From contig NZ_RJJW01000001.1 in the NCBI RefSeq assembly GCF_003781945.1, positions 95,142-159,141 of the forward strand: DNA of 64,000 nt. Direction: 5' to 3'. Origin of the DNA: Halorubrum sp. CSM-61 (GTDB lineage: Archaea; Halobacteriota; Halobacteria; Halobacteriales; Haloferacaceae). Position 1 is the stretch's first letter; each line of letters starts with the position of its first letter. A program made the position numbers and the translations under genes. This document shows, one piece after another, positions 19,362 through 27,495 of the stretch. The notes under the pieces are model-generated. The model ran no database searches and was not told where the DNA came from. It was given only the letters and a program-made list of their open reading frames with translations.

Positions 19362-20864
19362 ATGGCAGGACGCACCTCGAAACAGACGGTCGGAGCGCTC
19401 CCGGACGCGACGGCGGACTCGCCGTTCGCGCCCGTCGCACTCACGTGGCTCGTGTGGTCGCTGTTCGCCGCGAGCCTCGCGGCCCTCGTCGCCCGAGTCC
19501 GACTCGGGTTCGCCCCGGAGCTCCCCGGCGTGTTCGCCGTCGACGGACTGACCGTCCTGCTGTGGGTCGTCGTCGCCTTCTTCGCCGGCGTCGTCCTCAG
19601 CTACTCGCGCCGCTACATGGCGGGAGACGCCCACGAGACGGAGTTTTCCCTCGCCGTGTCCGGGTTCGCGGCGATCGTGATGACGCTCGTCGCGGCCGAC
19701 CACGTCGTCCTGTTCGGGCTCCTGTGGCTGGCGATGGGCCTCGTGATGGCGGAGCTGATCGGCACCGTCGACGAGTGGGAGCAGGCGCGGACGGCCGCGT
19801 CGGTCGCCCGGCGGTACTTCGTCGCCAGCAGCGCGCTCCTCGGCGTCGCGCTGGCGGCGCTCTGGTGGGCGACCGGCGCGACGACGATATCCGGCGTCGC
19901 CGCGAACGCCGACGCCCTCGGCGGTCCGGTGTGGCTCGTCGCCGCCGTCGCGCTCGTGCTCGCGGCGATGATCCAGTCCGCCTTGGTCCCGTTCCACGGC
20001 TGGCTGCTCTCCTCGATGACCGCCCCGACGCCCGCGTCGGCGCTGATGCACGCCGGGTTCGTCAACGCGGGCGGGGTTCTCCTGCTCCGGTTCGCGCCCG
20101 TCGTCACCGTCGACGGCACACTCATGCTCGCGATCGTCGCGGTCGGCGCGACCAGCGCCCTCCTCGGAAAGCTCCTCAAGGCCACCCGCCCGGACGTGAA
20201 GAGCAAGCTCGCCTGCTCGACGGTGGGGCAGATGGGATTCATGATCATGCAGGCCGGGCTCGGGTTCTTCGGGGCCGCGATCACCCACCTCGTCCTGCAC
20301 GGGTTCTACAAGGCGTACCACTTCCTCGGTGCGGGCGGCGAGGTCGAGCGGACGACCCCGGGGAAGAAGGCGGGACGCTCGACCGGCGGTTCCGGCCTCG
20401 TCGACGTCGTCGTGACGCTGGCGACCGGGCTGGCGGGCGGCGCGGCCTTCGTCCTGCTGACGGGGAAGGGAGCGAGCGCCGACACCGGGCTCCTGCTCGC
20501 CCTGTTCGTGACGTTCACGACCCTCCACGCGGCGCGCGGCACGGTCCGGAACGCGTCGCTTCCGGCGTCGGTCCGCTACGGCGCGGTCCCACTCGTGTTC
20601 CTCCCGGCCATCGCCGTGTACGCGCTCGTCTACGAGGCGATCTCGGCGGTCCTGTCCGGGCTTCCGGTCGTCACGGCCCCGACCGAACTGAGCGCGCTCC
20701 ACGCCCTCGTGGCCGCCGTCTTCCTCGCCGCGTACGTCGCGATCGAGGCGGGCGTCCACGAGCGCAGCCGGCGGCTCTACGTCGCGCTGCTGAACGCGGG
20801 CCAGCCCTCGCCCGACACCCTGCTGACGAACGCGGAGGAGTACGACGACGGAGGAGTCCAATGA
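19362..20864 (+). CDS. dabB: DabB-type proton-conducting membrane subunit (inorganic carbon uptake)
   Basis: A 500-residue NuoL/MrpA-like membrane protein with about 13-14 helices. The proton-antiporter core is clear: LWLAMGLVMAELIG, then HGWLLSSMTAPTPASALMHAG, and VLHGFYKAYHFLGAG with conserved Lys and His. In DabAB complexes this subunit passes protons to drive CO2 hydration or trapping by DabA. The identification rests on the gene pair: its stop overlaps the dabA start by 4 nt (ATGA). It is shorter than NuoL (about 600 residues), consistent with DabB. Confidence 0.85.
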   Translation: MAGRTSKQTVGALPDATADSPFAPVALTWLVWSLFAASLAALVARVRLGFAPELPGVFAVDGLTVLLWVVVAFFAGVVLSYSRRYMAGDAHETEFSLAVSGFAAIVMTLVAADHVVLFGLLWLAMGLVMAELIGTVDEWEQARTAASVARRYFVASSALLGVALAALWWATGATTISGVAANADALGGPVWLVAAVALVLAAMIQSALVPFHGWLLSSMTAPTPASALMHAGFVNAGGVLLLRFAPVVTVDGTLMLAIVAVGATSALLGKLLKATRPDVKSKLACSTVGQMGFMIMQAGLGFFGAAITHLVLHGFYKAYHFLGAGGEVERTTPGKKAGRSTGGSGLVDVVVTLATGLAGGAAFVLLTGKGASADTGLLLALFVTFTTLHAARGTVRNASLPASVRYGAVPLVFLPAIAVYALVYEAISAVLSGLPVVTAPTELSALHALVAAVFLAAYVAIEAGVHERSRRLYVALLNAGQPSPDTLLTNAEEYDDGGVQ

Positions 20865-23338
20865 GCACCGAATCCACCATCGACGACGCGACCATCCAAG
20901 ACGGCATCGACAGCGCGGCGAAGACGGTCGGCTCGGTCTGGCCGATCCACTCGTTCGTGACGGCCAACCCCCTCTCGGGGTTCGAGGACGTGCCGTTCGG
21001 CGAGGCGGTGACGCAGGCGGCCGACCTACTCGGCGGCCGCGGTTACCCGAGCTGCGAGACGTTCCGCGCGGCGCTCGACGACGGGCGGATCGACCGCGAG
21101 ACGCTCGAGTCGGAGCTCGCCGACCGCGGCTACGACGCCGATCCGGAGGCCCTGATCGAGCGTCTGGACGCTGACACCGAGCCGGAGACGCCGGATCGCG
21201 AGGCCGACGCCGACGCCGAGCGGGTCGACCGCGTGCTGACGAAGTGGCTGTCGGCCTTCCTCGACGAGGGACACGCCAAGTGGTCGATGCCGAACCGCGA
21301 CGAGGGGTTCTACGCCGCCTTCCGCGGGGTGGCCGCACACGATAGCGAGATCCCCGACGGGGTCGCCGAGTCGCTCCCCGAGAGCCCGATCGAGGCCATC
21401 GAGGACGCCTTGGAGTCGTACCCGGAGAGCCAGCGGGTGCCCGTCTTCGAGGAGCAGCTGGCGGCGCTTCCGGGATGGACCGGCCTCGTCAAGCAGCGCG
21501 TCGACGACGAGGGGGCGTGGCAGTCGGCCCACCCGATCACGCTGGCGGACTACCTCGCGGTCCGGCTCGCGCTCTGCGACGGGTTCGGGGTCGACGTCGA
21601 GCCGTCCGTCGGTCCCGGCACCGCCGACCTCGACCCGGCCGACGAGATCGCCGAGGCGTTCCTGAGCGCGTGGGAGGCGAGCTACCGGTCCGCGGTCGTC
21701 GACCGCGTCGCCGCCGAGAGCCGGGAGCTGGCCGACGAGCGGTCTGCGGTCGAGAGCGGGGACTCCGGTCGGCCCGACGCGCAGCTGGTGTTCTGTATCG
21801 ACACCCGCTCGGAGGTGATCCGGCGTCACGTCGAGGCGACGGGCGACTACGAGACCCACGGCTACGCCGGCTTCTTCGGCGTCCCGATGGAGTATCAGGG
21901 GTACGACGCGGAGGCGTCGGTCGACGCCTGTCCGCCCATCCTCGACGCGCAGCACCGGGTCAGCGAGGTCCCGACCGACGGGGGCGCCAAAGAGCGTCAC
22001 GACCGGTGGTCGAGCGTCCGCGAGGCCGCGGGCGAGGTGGTCTCGAAGCTGAAGACGAACCCCGCCAGCGCCTTCGGCTTCGTCGAGAACGCCGGGAGCG
22101 GCTACGGGCTGGCGCTCGCGGCCCGCACGCTCGTGCCCGGCCGCGTCCGCGATCTGTTGACCACCGCCGACGACGCGGCGCCCGACGGACGCGAGTTCTG
22201 CGAGCCGACCGTTCAGCACCAGCACACCCACGCCGACGGGCTCCCGGTGGGCCTGACCCGCGAGGAGAAGGTCGAGTACGCCGCGACCGCCTTCGAGCTG
22301 ATGGGGTGGACGGAGTTCGGTCGGCTCGTCGTGTTCACGGGCCACGCGAGCGAGACGGCGAACAACCCCTACGACTCCAGCCTCGACTGCGGCGCGTGCG
22401 CCGGCAGCCCCGGCGGCCCGAACGCCCGCGTCTTGGCCGAGATCTGCGCCGACCCCGACGTGCGGGCGGCGCTGCGCGACCGCGGCTTCGAGATCCCCGA
22501 GGACACCGTCTTCCTCGCCGGCGAGCACAACACGACGACCGACGAGATCGAGGTCTACGGCGACGCGCCCGAGAGCCACGCTGACGACCTCGACCGGCTG
22601 CGCGCCGACCTCGACATCGCCCGCGAGAACGCGACCGCCGAGCGCGTCGAGTCGATGGGCGGCGACCCGTCTGAGGGCGTCGCCGAGGCCGAGCGTCGCG
22701 CCGCCGACTGGGCCGAGACGCGTCCCGAGTGGGGGCTGGCGGGCAACGCCGGCTTCGTCGTCGGTCCGCGCGAGCTGACGAGCGACCTCGACCTCGACGG
22801 CCGCGCGTTCCTCCACTCGTACGACTGGTCGACCGACCCCGAGGGCGACGCGCTGGAGGGGATCCTCGCGGGGCCGATGGTCGTCACCCAGTGGATCAAC
22901 GCCCAGTACTACTTCTCGACCGTCGACAACGCGGTTTACGGGAGCGGGTCGAAGGTGACGCAGAACCCCGTCGGCAACGTCGGCGTCTACCAGGGCAACG
23001 GCGGCGACCTGATGACCGGCCTCCCGCTCCAGTCGCTGATGGCCGCCGCGGACGAGCCGTACCACCAGCCGCTCCGGCTCTCGACGGTCGTCCACGCGCC
23101 GGTCGAGCGCGTCACCGACGCCCTGGCCGGCCTCGAGGAGGTCGTCCAACTGCTGGACAACGACTGGCTCTCGCTGACGGTCGTCGACCCGACGCGGGAG
23201 CACCGCGCGTTCGAGTACGAGCGCGACTTGGCGTGGCGGCCGCTCTCCGAGTCGTCCGCCCCCGAGCCGGAGTCGCCGGAACCGGAGGCGCCGACCGCTC
23301 CCGAGCGCGAGCCCGCGCCCGCGACCGCGGACGACTGA
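20861..23338 (+). CDS. dabA: DabA zinc subunit of inorganic carbon accumulating complex (DUF2309)
   Basis: An 825-residue cytoplasmic protein of the DUF2309/UPF0753 family. The beta-carbonic-anhydrase-like zinc site is intact: Cys312 and Asp314 in FCIDTRSE, His495 in FTGHASETANNPY, and Cys510 in SLDCGACAGSPGG. The 15-residue His-Cys spacing is the one reported for DabA. The family hydrates or traps CO2 as bicarbonate when paired with DabB. The last 40 residues are a Pro/Glu-rich tail. It is translationally coupled to dabB, and the trp operon begins 128 nt downstream. Confidence 0.88.
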   Translation: MSTESTIDDATIQDGIDSAAKTVGSVWPIHSFVTANPLSGFEDVPFGEAVTQAADLLGGRGYPSCETFRAALDDGRIDRETLESELADRGYDADPEALIERLDADTEPETPDREADADAERVDRVLTKWLSAFLDEGHAKWSMPNRDEGFYAAFRGVAAHDSEIPDGVAESLPESPIEAIEDALESYPESQRVPVFEEQLAALPGWTGLVKQRVDDEGAWQSAHPITLADYLAVRLALCDGFGVDVEPSVGPGTADLDPADEIAEAFLSAWEASYRSAVVDRVAAESRELADERSAVESGDSGRPDAQLVFCIDTRSEVIRRHVEATGDYETHGYAGFFGVPMEYQGYDAEASVDACPPILDAQHRVSEVPTDGGAKERHDRWSSVREAAGEVVSKLKTNPASAFGFVENAGSGYGLALAARTLVPGRVRDLLTTADDAAPDGREFCEPTVQHQHTHADGLPVGLTREEKVEYAATAFELMGWTEFGRLVVFTGHASETANNPYDSSLDCGACAGSPGGPNARVLAEICADPDVRAALRDRGFEIPEDTVFLAGEHNTTTDEIEVYGDAPESHADDLDRLRADLDIARENATAERVESMGGDPSEGVAEAERRAADWAETRPEWGLAGNAGFVVGPRELTSDLDLDGRAFLHSYDWSTDPEGDALEGILAGPMVVTQWINAQYYFSTVDNAVYGSGSKVTQNPVGNVGVYQGNGGDLMTGLPLQSLMAAADEPYHQPLRLSTVVHAPVERVTDALAGLEEVVQLLDNDWLSLTVVDPTREHRAFEYERDLAWRPLSESSAPEPESPEPEAPTAPEREPAPATADD

Positions 23339-23407
23339 TACGGTCTCAAGATTTCTCGTCCCGCGATCTTCCTCGCCGCGTGCTATCGGTTCGCAGGCCG
23401 GCGACAG

Positions 23408-23414
23408 CGTTATA
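23408..23414 (+). promoter_or_regulatory. TATA-like box of the trp operon
   Basis: GTTATA with its following bases lies about 55 nt before the trpD ATG. It would place transcription start near 23437-23440, between the second and third TGTACA sites. Confidence 0.45.
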
Positions 23415-23464
23415 CCGATGTACATACTTGTACATCACAACGCGAAACACTACATCGGTGTACA
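23414..23464 (+). promoter_or_regulatory. Three TGTACA palindromes (TRP-box-like operators) before trpD
   Basis: TGTACA occurs at 23419-23424, 23429-23434 and 23459-23464, with spacings of 10 and 30 bp, i.e. on one helical face. The outer two are part of a longer inverted repeat, ACCGATGTA (23414-23422) and TACATCGGT (23451-23459). The trpD ATG is at 23467. TGTACA is the consensus of the TRP box bound by the archaeal repressor TrpY of Methanothermobacter. The placement overlaps the presumed start site, which suits repression. Confidence 0.65.
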
Positions 23465-23466
23465 CA

Positions 23467-24531
23467 ATGAATATCAACGACACGGTCGAGCACGTGACGG
23501 AGGGGGCGGATCTGACGGTCGACGAGGCGCGCGAGGCCGCGCGGCTCGTCTTCGAGGAGGCGACCGAGGCGCAGATCGGCGCGCTGCTCGCCGCGCTCCG
23601 CGCGAAGGGTGAGACCGAGGCGGAGATCGCGGGGTTCGCACAGGGGATGCGCGACGCCGCCCGGACGATCGAGCCCGACCGGGAGCCGCTCGTCGACACC
23701 TGCGGGACCGGCGGCGACGACTACGACACGATCAACGTCTCGACGACGAGCGCGATCGTCGCGGCGGGCGCGGGCGTGCCGATCGCCAAGCACGGCAACT
23801 ACTCGGTGTCCTCCTCCTCCGGGAGCGCCGACGTGCTGGAGGTCGCGGGCGCCGACGTGGAGGCCGAGCCGCCGGCGGTCGAGGAGGCGATCGAGGACGA
23901 CGGGATCGGGTTCATGCTCGCGCCCGTCTTCCACCCGGCGATGAAGGCCGTCATCGGCCCGCGCAAGGAGCTCGGGATGCGGACGATCTTCAACGTGCTC
24001 GGCCCGCTCACGAACCCCGCGGGCGCCGACGCGCAGGTGCTCGGCGTGTACGACCCGGATCTCGTCCCCCTCATCGCGCGGTCGCTCGCGCACATGCCCG
24101 TCGAGCGCGCCCTCGTCGTTCACGGCGCGGGGATGGACGAGATCGGGATCCATTCGGAGACGGTCGCCGCCGAGGTCGAGGGCGACGAGGTGCGGGAGTT
24201 CACGATTACGCCCGAGGACTTAGGGCTCGACCGTGCCCCGATCGAGGACGTCGCGGGCGGGACGCCCGAAGAGAACGCCGCCGACCTGCGGGGGATCGTC
24301 GACGGCTCCGTGACGGGCCCCAAACGCGACCTCATCCTCGCGAACGCCGGCGCGGCGATCTACGTCGCCGGCGAGGCCGACACGCTGGCGGCGGGCGTCG
24401 AGCGCGCGGCCGACGCGATCGACTCCGGCGCGGCCGCGACGAAATTCGCGGCGCTGTGCGGCGACGGGGAGGCGGCCGAGGGCGGCGAAGCGGCCGTCTC
24501 GACGACCGCCGCCCCGGAGGACGACGACTGA
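23467..24531 (+). CDS. trpD: Anthranilate phosphoribosyltransferase
   Basis: A 354-residue enzyme that joins anthranilate to PRPP in tryptophan synthesis. The PRPP-binding signature DTCGTGGDDYDTINVST, the KHGNYSVSSSSGSADVLE loop and the MKAVIGPRKELGMRTIFNVL anthranilate-site segment are all present. The last 20 residues are an acidic tail. It is first gene of trpDFEG; its stop overlaps the trpF start by one base (TGATG). Regulation is probably by the TGTACA sites just upstream. Confidence 0.95.
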   Translation: MNINDTVEHVTEGADLTVDEAREAARLVFEEATEAQIGALLAALRAKGETEAEIAGFAQGMRDAARTIEPDREPLVDTCGTGGDDYDTINVSTTSAIVAAGAGVPIAKHGNYSVSSSSGSADVLEVAGADVEAEPPAVEEAIEDDGIGFMLAPVFHPAMKAVIGPRKELGMRTIFNVLGPLTNPAGADAQVLGVYDPDLVPLIARSLAHMPVERALVVHGAGMDEIGIHSETVAAEVEGDEVREFTITPEDLGLDRAPIEDVAGGTPEENAADLRGIVDGSVTGPKRDLILANAGAAIYVAGEADTLAAGVERAADAIDSGAAATKFAALCGDGEAAEGGEAAVSTTAAPEDDD

Positions 24532-25175
24532 TGGCGCGGGTGAAGATCTGCGGGCTCACGCGCGGCGCGGACCTCCGGGCCGCGGTCGACGCCGGCGCCG
24601 ACGCGGTGGGCGTCATCTCCGAGGTACCGGTCGACACCCCTCGCGAGGTCGACCCGGCGACGGCGGCGGAGCTGCTCGCCGACGTGCCGCCGTTCGTCAC
24701 CGCGACGCTCGTCACCATGCCCGAGTCGGCCGAGCGCGCGGTCGAGCTCCTGCGGACGGTCACGCCGGACGCCGTCCAGCTCCACGGCGAGTGGACGCCC
24801 GACGAGATCCGATTCATTCGCGCGGAGACCGAGCGGAAGGTGCTGCTCGCGGTCGACGCCGACGACCCGGCGCGCGCCGAGGAGTTCGACCGGGTCGTCG
24901 ACGCGCTCGTGATCGACTCGACCGACGACTCCGGCGCGGGCGGGACCGGCGAGACCCACGACTGGGAGCGGGCCGGCGACCTCGCCGACCGGCTCACCTC
25001 GCCGGTGGTCCTCGCCGGCGGGCTGACGGCCGACACCGTCGCCGAGGCGGTCCGCGCCGCCGACCCGTTCGCGGTCGACGTGGCCTCCGGCGTCGAGCTG
25101 TCCGACGGGCGGAAGGACCACAACGCGGTGGCCCGGTTCGTGGCGAACGCGGGCCGGGAGATGGAGCTGGCATGA
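24531..25175 (+). CDS. trpF: Phosphoribosylanthranilate isomerase
   Basis: A 214-residue TIM-barrel enzyme for the Amadori rearrangement of phosphoribosylanthranilate. The general base Cys is in VKICGLTRGADL near the start, and the acid Asp is in the strand LVIDSTDDSG. The phosphate-binding loops VVLAGGLTADTV and VDVASGVELSDGRKD are present. Its stop overlaps the trpE start by 4 nt. Codon use matches the operon. Confidence 0.95.
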   Translation: MARVKICGLTRGADLRAAVDAGADAVGVISEVPVDTPREVDPATAAELLADVPPFVTATLVTMPESAERAVELLRTVTPDAVQLHGEWTPDEIRFIRAETERKVLLAVDADDPARAEEFDRVVDALVIDSTDDSGAGGTGETHDWERAGDLADRLTSPVVLAGGLTADTVAEAVRAADPFAVDVASGVELSDGRKDHNAVARFVANAGREMELA

Positions 25176-26890
25176 CCGACCGCGACGACGCCGGAGAGGC
25201 CGATTCCGCGGGATCGGTCGACCCAGTTCTCGACCGCTCGAAGGCCGAGTTCGTCGAGCTCGCGGCCGACGCCGAGAGGCCGGTCGTGGTCCGCGCGTCC
25301 GCGTCGCTGGACGCCGACGTGACTCCCCTCGCGGCGTACGCGACGCTGGTTGGCGAGGGGCCGTACGGGTTCCTCTTAGAGTCCGGCGAGAAGGTCGCCT
25401 CCAGCGACCCCGACGGGGCGTTCACCGCCGACGGCGACGCCGACAAACACGCGCGCTACTCGTTCGTCGGCTACGACCCCGAGGCGATCGTCTCGGTCCA
25501 CCCCGACCGGACGGACGTGACGCGATTGGGTCCGGCGGCGGAGTTCGTCGGGAACGAGTCCGGAGGCGATCTGGGCCCCGACGCCGGCGACGCGATCGAC
25601 CGGATCCGCGCGGCGTTCCCGGACGTGAGCCTGCGCGGCTTCCCCGACACGGACCGGCAGATCCTCTCCGGGGGCTTCGTCGGCTTCCTCGCGTACGAGG
25701 CCGTCTACGACCTCTGGCTAGAGGAGGTCGGCGTCGACCGCCCCGAGACCGAGTTCCCGGACGCCGAGTTCGCGTTAACGACCCGGACCGTCGTCTTCGA
25801 CGACAAGGAGGGGACCGTCGAACTCGTCTTCACCCCCGTCGTCGGCGTCGACGACGACCCCGCGGTCGTCTACGACGACCTCGTGAGCGAGGCGGAGCGG
25901 GTCGGCGCCGAGCTCCGCGAGGCCGCGCCGCCGGAACCGGACGGGATCCGCGTGGACGACGAGTCCGCCGACCCCCGCGACGAGTACGAGGAGGCGGTTC
26001 GGACCGCCAAGCGGCACGTCCTCGACGGCGACATCTACCAGGGCGTGATCTCGCGGAGCCGCGAGCTCCGCGGCGAGGTCGACTCGCTGGGGCTGTACGC
26101 GGCGCTCCGCGAGGTGAACCCCTCGCCGTACATGTACGTCCTGCGCCACGACGACCGCAGCATCGTCGGCGCGAGCCCCGAGACGCTGGTGTCGGTGCGG
26201 GGCGACCGGGTCGTCTCGAACCCGATCGCGGGCACCTGTCCCCGCGGGACGAGCCCGGTCGAGGACCGCCGACTCGCGGGCGAGATGCTCGCGGACGGGA
26301 AGGAGCGCGCCGAGCACACGATGTTGGTCGACCTCGCGCGCAACGACGTGCGGCGCGTCTCGGAGGCGGGCTCCGTCCGCGTCGAGGAGTTCATGAACGT
26401 GCTGAAGTACAGCCACGTCCAGCACATCGAGTCGACCGTGACGGGGACGCTTTCGAGCGACGCCGACGCCTTCGACGCGACCCGCGCGACGTTCCCGGCC
26501 GGCACCCTCACGGGCGCGCCGAAGGTGCGCGCGATGGAGATCATCGAGGCGCTGGAGACGACCCCGCGGGAGGCGTACGGCGGCGGCGTCGGCTACTACG
26601 CGTGGACCGGCGACGCCGACTTCGCCATCGTGATCCGGACGGCGACGCTCGACGAGTCGCCGCCGGGCGCGAGCGACCCGGACGAGACCGCGGTGACCGT
26701 CCGCGCCGGCGCGGGGCTCGTCGCCGACTCCGACCCGGCCGCCGAGTACGAGGAGACCGAACAGAAGATGGACGGCGTGTTGACCGCGATCGACCGGATC
26801 CGGGAAGACGGCGGGGGCGACGGCGACCACTCCTCGTCCGCCGACGCCGCGGACGACCCCCTTCCGGCCGGCACGGAGGTCGACGAATGA
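25172..26890 (+). CDS. trpE: Anthranilate synthase component I
   Basis: A 572-residue chorismate-using enzyme. The N-terminal domain has LLESGEK near residue 68, part of the tryptophan feedback site in TrpE proteins. The C-terminal chorismate-binding domain has GDIYQGVISRSREL, NPSPYMYVLR, SNPIAGTCPRG, the RAEHTMLVDLARND stretch and FPAGTLTGAPKVRAME. An acidic tail of about 30 residues follows. It works with TrpG, whose start overlaps its stop by 4 nt. Confidence 0.95.
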   Translation: MTDRDDAGEADSAGSVDPVLDRSKAEFVELAADAERPVVVRASASLDADVTPLAAYATLVGEGPYGFLLESGEKVASSDPDGAFTADGDADKHARYSFVGYDPEAIVSVHPDRTDVTRLGPAAEFVGNESGGDLGPDAGDAIDRIRAAFPDVSLRGFPDTDRQILSGGFVGFLAYEAVYDLWLEEVGVDRPETEFPDAEFALTTRTVVFDDKEGTVELVFTPVVGVDDDPAVVYDDLVSEAERVGAELREAAPPEPDGIRVDDESADPRDEYEEAVRTAKRHVLDGDIYQGVISRSRELRGEVDSLGLYAALREVNPSPYMYVLRHDDRSIVGASPETLVSVRGDRVVSNPIAGTCPRGTSPVEDRRLAGEMLADGKERAEHTMLVDLARNDVRRVSEAGSVRVEEFMNVLKYSHVQHIESTVTGTLSSDADAFDATRATFPAGTLTGAPKVRAMEIIEALETTPREAYGGGVGYYAWTGDADFAIVIRTATLDESPPGASDPDETAVTVRAGAGLVADSDPAAEYEETEQKMDGVLTAIDRIREDGGGDGDHSSSADAADDPLPAGTEVDE

Positions 26891-27495
26891 GGGTCGTCGT
26901 CGTCGACAACTTCGACTCGTTCACGTACAACCTCGTCGAGTACGTCTCCGACCAGCCGCTCGGCGGCGAAGGGGCGGACATCGAGGAGATCGACGTCGAG
27001 GTGTTCAAGAACACCGCGTCGCTGGCGGAGATCCGGGACGCCGACCCCGACGCGATCCTCGTCAGCCCCGGCCCCGGCCACCCGAAGAACGAGCGCGACG
27101 TGGGCGTGACGATGCCGGTGTTGCGGAACCTCTCCCCCGAGGTGCCGACGCTCGGCGTCTGTCTCGGCCTCGAGGCCGCCGTCTACGAGTACGGCGGGAC
27201 GGTCGGCCACGCCCCCGAACCGATCCACGGCAAGGCGTTCCCCGTCGACCACGGCGGCGAGGGGGTGTTCGCCGGGCTCGATCAGGGGTTCCGCGCCGGG
27301 CGCTACCACTCGCTGGTCGCCACCGAGGTCCCCGACGGCTTCGAGGTGACCGCGACCACGGACCACGAGGGCGAGGCGATCGTGATGGGGATCCGCCACC
27401 GCGAGCACCCGATCGAGGCGGTGCAGTTCCACCCGGAGAGCGTGCTGACCGCGGCGGGCCACGACCTGATCTCGAACTTCCTCGCGTCGGTTTGA
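26887..27495 (+). CDS. trpG: Anthranilate synthase glutamine amidotransferase component
   Basis: A 202-residue class I glutaminase that supplies ammonia to TrpE. The nucleophile Cys is in LGVCLGLEAA and the His/Glu pair is in VQFHPESVLT. The two residues usually His-Gln after CLG are Leu-Glu here, while the triad itself is complete. The DNFDSFTYNLVEY start and the SPGPGHPKN oxyanion strand are typical. It is last gene of the overlapping trpDFEG operon. Confidence 0.93.
   Translation: MRVVVVDNFDSFTYNLVEYVSDQPLGGEGADIEEIDVEVFKNTASLAEIRDADPDAILVSPGPGHPKNERDVGVTMPVLRNLSPEVPTLGVCLGLEAAVYEYGGTVGHAPEPIHGKAFPVDHGGEGVFAGLDQGFRAGRYHSLVATEVPDGFEVTATTDHEGEAIVMGIRHREHPIEAVQFHPESVLTAAGHDLISNFLASV

Follow-up and report, generated by a model that had tools for sequence, protein, structure and literature searches.

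A 10-bp-phased GTAC operator conserved at both tryptophan operons of haloarchaea, and its candidate TrpY-family repressor

The trpDFEG operon of tryptophan synthesis was examined in Halorubrum sp. CSM-61, within a stretch of 64,000 nucleotides (contig NZ_RJJW01000001.1, positions 95,142 to 159,141 of the forward strand; hereafter the window, from whose first letter coordinates are counted unless stated otherwise). TGTACA-like boxes upstream of trpD probably serve as operator for a repressor that responds to tryptophan and would act at both trp operons of haloarchaea, the repressor most likely being the single TrpY-family protein of the genome, in which a helix-turn-helix (HTH) segment is joined to an ACT domain; for this reading, built on sequence comparison, we estimate a probability of about 0.72. 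The operator itself is strongly supported by its sequence, phasing and conservation, its occurrence before both operons and its association with the TrpY family across genomes; we infer that the protein bound to it is TrpY, that tryptophan is the signal and that the control is repression.

An earlier note on this DNA had described three identical TGTACA palindromes before the operon, with spacings of 10 and 30 bp; these were confirmed at 23419-23424, 23429-23434 and 23459-23464 (measured from start to start). The window holds five copies of TGTACA against 1.36 expected (five were reached in 1 of 100 dinucleotide shuffles), three of them inside 46 bp, and in the whole 3.7-Mb genome copies paired at a distance of 40 bp or less were found at one place besides trpD. 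A TATA-like hexamer, TTATAC (23410-23415), is followed by the first two boxes and then by the transcription start site, which should lie some 25 bp beyond the hexamer; the start codon of trpD is at 23467. The boxes had been said to overlap the start site, but boxes 1 and 2 are confined to the interval from the TATA-like hexamer to the expected start and do not straddle the latter. All boxes of the promoter, at 23419, 23429, 23449 and 23459, fall on a single 10-bp register.

Conservation was assessed in 80 haloarchaeal loci with TrpD, representing 69 distinct sequences. The earlier note would have been contradicted by a lack of conservation in related haloarchaea; a gapless block of 58 bp (23403..23460, + strand) was present upstream of trpD in 80/80 loci, with the order GACA, TATA-like box, (A/G)TGTAC-N6-GTACAT, AA(C/G)(A/G)CG, TACAT(C/T), GGTG and start codon. 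Information averaged 1.23 bits per alignment column in the block, as against 0.21 in the 40 bp that precede it (1.05 and 0.13, respectively, for 19 representatives below 80% identity). The TATA-like box reads CTTAAG, GTTAAA or similar in relatives, its TT is invariant in 69/69 distinct sequences, and it is a putative TATA box by position and composition. Box 1 (23419..23424, + strand, register 0) and box 2 (23429..23434, + strand, register +10) are the left and right halves of the inverted repeat ATGTAC-N6-GTACAT; both match TGTACA at no fewer than four of six positions in all 80 loci, with TGTAC in 70 at box 1 and GTACA in 57 at box 2. Box 3 (23449..23456, + strand, register +30) should fall within the 5' leader; it has the conserved core TACAT(C/T) at 23451-23456 and reaches at least four of six matches in 69 loci. 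It is followed by the Shine-Dalgarno-like GGTG (23457..23460, + strand), present in 74/80 loci, mostly 6-8 nt 5' of the ATG, and probably a Shine-Dalgarno sequence with a role in ribosome binding.

The third TGTACA of the earlier note is thus box 4 (23459..23464, + strand, register +40), which is clade-specific: three exact copies occur in only seven loci (L013, L014, L015, L016, L019, L021 and L027, a small Halorubrum clade), two in 36, one in 12 and none in 25. Because 25 of the 80 loci lack any copy, exact TGTACA was rejected as the conserved unit. The unit is a set of degenerate GTAC-centred boxes on a 10-bp register (0, +10, +30), so that the proposal of TGTACA as a shared operator stands for the phased boxes and falls for the exact hexamer. 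In 13 haloarchaeal trpD promoters the summed box score was 76 at period 10 and 33-52 at other periods. A TACA-N4-TGTA palindrome was also tried as the operator, with 8 genomic occurrences where a reversed control had 3, and set aside, the 10-bp register fitting the alignments better. Register +20 (23439..23444, + strand), near the expected start site, carries no box: only 2 of the 80 loci reach four matches to TGTACA there. It is nevertheless strongly conserved as AA(C/G)(A/G)CG, with one C invariant in 69/69 distinct sequences, and might serve as initiator or as a further site. In Halorubrum rubrum YC87, trpD loci with the same promoter were found on two scaffolds (L069 and L071), either through duplication or as an assembly artefact.

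The search for boxes near trpC that the earlier note had proposed was fruitful. The trpC promoter carries an element related to that of trpD in 30/30 haloarchaeal genomes, Halorubrum sp. CSM-61 included, with the consensus CGCAAGnCTTATGTACAnATnCGTnCGTTAnTGTACAnTAATG and GTAC centres at 0, +10 and +20. A model made of the element sequence alone found matches in 145/145 haloarchaeal genomes of 50 genera, nearly always once per genome, and trpC was encoded beside the match in 29/29 loci checked. In the genome under study the model had two matches, the trpC element with 47.5 bits and, far more weakly, the trpD element; the scan gave nothing past the two trp operons that would point to a wider regulon. 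These matches, about one per genome, lead to the conclusion that a dedicated operator is common to both unlinked trp operons. A relaxed inverted-repeat pattern, tried as a probe for a wider regulon, returned 232 places in the genome, too many to interpret.

The candidate reader was found among the ACT-domain proteins of the genome. As the earlier note had anticipated, a TrpY-like gene is present: it lies at G000:C23:305751-306239 (minus strand, coordinates of its own contig) and encodes 166 residues, of which 2-164 match TrpY_fam (NF053754, NCBIfam) with 230.5 bits (cut-off 180), and its ACT domain (PF01842) also scores above cut-off. The putative HTH segment is recognized by the conserved IARE..VDRRVVD.T. 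Exactly one copy of the gene was present in each of 30/30 haloarchaea tested, all of which carry the operator element. A search for relatives in the PDB by sequence gave none that was convincing. In 17 of the 30 haloarchaea (L132-L161) the gene follows hisB at no more than 1.5 kb, in several at a distance of just 6-44 bp, a proximity that may point to a connection with histidine synthesis.

The absence of boxes coincides with loss of the TrpY family or with change of its putative recognition helix, as judged from the genomes. Both genomes of family f18 have a complete trp operon and neither a full-length TrpY_fam protein nor boxes. In families f13 and f30 the putative recognition helix of TrpY reads DRKVVxxxI instead of DRRVVDxT, and none of eight promoters reached p < 0.02 for phased boxes. 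One f13 genome (G233, 99% complete) is without TrpY_fam and trpC, both of which are present in two congeners; this suggests that tryptophan synthesis was lost together with its regulator. The f18 trp promoters, just 5' of trpE (L277 and L278), show TGTCA/TGACA-like repeats and no GTAC boxes; the repeats may perhaps be a replacement operator.

Boxes were also sought elsewhere in the archaeal phylum that comprises the haloarchaea and most methanogens, in the trpE regions of 27 genomes belonging to other families; 24 promoters were scored. Many of these genomes carry looser phased boxes at the head of the trp operon, and such boxes occur in most methanogen families of the phylum; the head in L207, for example, reads TGTACT-TATACA-TGTACA-TGTACA with each step 10 bp. 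Summed over the 24 promoters, the box score came to 151 for a period of 10 and to 69-88 for the other periods in the range 7-15, a comparison that is independent of shuffles. Against first-order shuffles, 19 of the 24 promoters reached p ≤ 0.0055, uncorrected; these single-promoter values are approximate, since the operon heads were selected manually and a few of them already showed visible boxes when selected. Five methanogen genomes among these outgroups (L222, L226, L227, L230 and L231) share GGTGATGCCGGTGGA at the start of trpE, which gives rise to an overlapping short frame, MPV(E/D)W...; it is a possible leader peptide or unusual ribosome-binding site, and an Rfam search of the region gave no match.

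In the mechanism that we propose, the ACT domain of the TrpY-family protein would bind tryptophan and its helix-turn-helix would recognize GTAC in one major groove after the next. Contacts to both arms of ATGTAC-N6-GTACAT, one turn apart, would be made from a single face of the DNA just 3' of the TATA box, and additional subunits would fill the phased boxes farther downstream. With ample tryptophan, bound TrpY would block the entry or escape of RNA polymerase at both trp operons. In Halobacterium salinarum trpCBA and trpDFEG are induced together when the mixed aromatic amino acids are withheld (PMC4162585), and in Haloarcula hispanica both trp operons are co-regulated without a site for the known regulator, so that additional factors were called for (PMC10817205). 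An earlier study was unable to estimate what the TrpY homologs of haloarchaea do (PMC6737238). For haloarchaeal tryptophan control, an exactly defined operator, a pair of target operons and a single candidate gene can now be put forward, and a single-gene test would be feasible in a tractable species such as Haloferax volcanii.

The precedent is Methanothermobacter thermautotrophicus, whose TrpY binds TRP boxes and represses trp (PMC6737238). As in that organism, a TrpY-family HTH-ACT gene is present and TGTACA-type boxes overlap trp promoters. The TRP box consensus reported by the Reeve laboratory is said to be TGTACA. The M. thermautotrophicus genes form a single trpEGCFBAD operon divergent from trpY, which represses itself (PMC6737238 for the autoregulation), whereas haloarchaea have two unlinked trp operons, a trpY gene elsewhere (near hisB in about half) with a box-free promoter, and boxes that are degenerate and kept in a strict 10-bp register. 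We therefore claim functional similarity and membership of the protein family, not identity of the systems, since divergent, self-repressing trpY belongs to the M. thermautotrophicus organisation, and the trpY gene here is unlinked and apparently not autoregulated. Tar (TK0271) of Thermococcus kodakarensis is likewise a dedicated regulator of archaeal aromatic amino-acid operons, but it is an activator and a different protein, encoded inside the aro operon, with the site TGGACA-N8-TGTCCA (PMC6737238); the element conserved here consists of 10-bp-spaced GTAC boxes and is not that site. The proposed mode of control resembles that of bacterial TrpR, a tryptophan repressor at the trp promoter. TrpR has a different fold and operator and no homology to the HTH-ACT protein described here.

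Taken across the phylum, the data suggest an amino-acid regulon with an operator geometry kept throughout. On balance we lean slightly towards the view that the 10-bp-phased GTAC operator and its TrpY-family reader are the ancestral tryptophan switch of this phylum, installed on two operons in haloarchaea; lineages that rewired their trp control would have given it up along with the TrpY gene or its recognition helix, and TrpY would act as a phased array and not as one dimer on one site.

Several observations weigh against TrpY as the reader of the boxes. Of 296 genomes examined in the phylum, 291 contain TrpY_fam, and its presence alone is for that reason weak evidence. The haloarchaeal gene is unlinked to trpC and trpD, and no phased boxes were found upstream of it; haloarchaeal trpY is therefore apparently not autoregulated through the boxes, and a box-driven feedback loop was discarded. 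The TrpY-like control put forward in the earlier note is supported in outline, through the single gene and its co-occurrence with the boxes, subject to the correction that the gene is unlinked and box-free. The helix change in f13 and f30 probably counts as one evolutionary event, and 5 of the 24 promoters from the outgroups fell short of significance. The TrpY homolog of T. kodakarensis does not control trp (PMC6737238), and in H. salinarum omission of aromatic amino acids raises LrpA2 (OE2776F) 14.9-fold (PMC4162585).

That induction favours a dedicated trp operator read by some other factor, for example the Lrp/AsnC-type LrpA2 or a TrmB paralog, the chief rival explanation, though one that we regard as unlikely. 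Phased boxes accompany the DRRVVD-type TrpY across the phylum and are missing where TrpY was lost or changed. The established TrmB motif, for its part, differs from the trp boxes, which counts against a TrmB-type reader. Both trp operons of Haloarcula hispanica do depend on TrmB without having TrmB sites, for which the authors suggest the paralog HAH_0923 (PMC10817205), whereas a study of Lrp in H. salinarum mentions neither tryptophan nor trp genes (PMC2894021). It is still less probable that the boxes are an activator site of the kind used by Tar in Thermococcus, from which a bound regulator would recruit transcription factors under a shortage of aromatic amino acids. Archaeal activator sites are usually upstream, and the boxes here lie downstream of the TATA box or overlap it and reach beyond the expected start site, an arrangement that suits blocking. 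The proximity of box 1 to the TATA box would fit activation, and the T. kodakarensis site TGGACA-N8-TGTCCA provides a precedent (PMC6737238).

Since conservation extends to the Shine-Dalgarno region and the start codon, an element acting at the level of RNA, that is, a leader structure or attenuator governing trpD translation, was also considered, and is very improbable: boxes 1 and 2 precede the expected start of transcription, the boxes recur at the trpC promoter, where there is almost no leader, RNAalifold returned zero consensus pairs for 47 sequences, and a search against Rfam gave no match. A chance cluster within an A+T-rich promoter can be practically dismissed; the intergenic A+T content is indeed above that of the genome, but the element is conserved in 80/80 trpD loci and 145 trpC promoters, with a strict 10-bp period and a sharp drop of conservation just upstream.

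The genes downstream of the operator were verified by profile searches, in agreement with the assignment of the operon as trpDFEG in the earlier note. All are on the + strand: trpD, anthranilate phosphoribosyltransferase (23467..24531; TIGR01245, 411.8 bits); trpF, phosphoribosylanthranilate isomerase (24531..25175; PF00697, 123.4 bits); trpE, anthranilate synthase component I (25172..26890; TIGR01820, 577.8 bits, above cut-off); and trpG, anthranilate synthase component II (26887..27495; NF041322, 353.6 bits, above cut-off). Two genes of the same strand precede the operon. The one directly upstream of the trp block is large, ends at 23338 and is DabA/DUF2309-like by eye; farther 5', at 19362-20864, lies a gene for a NuoL-like membrane protein, whose similarity to NuoL was checked. 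Together (19362-23338) they are possibly a DabAB-type pair for the uptake of inorganic carbon.
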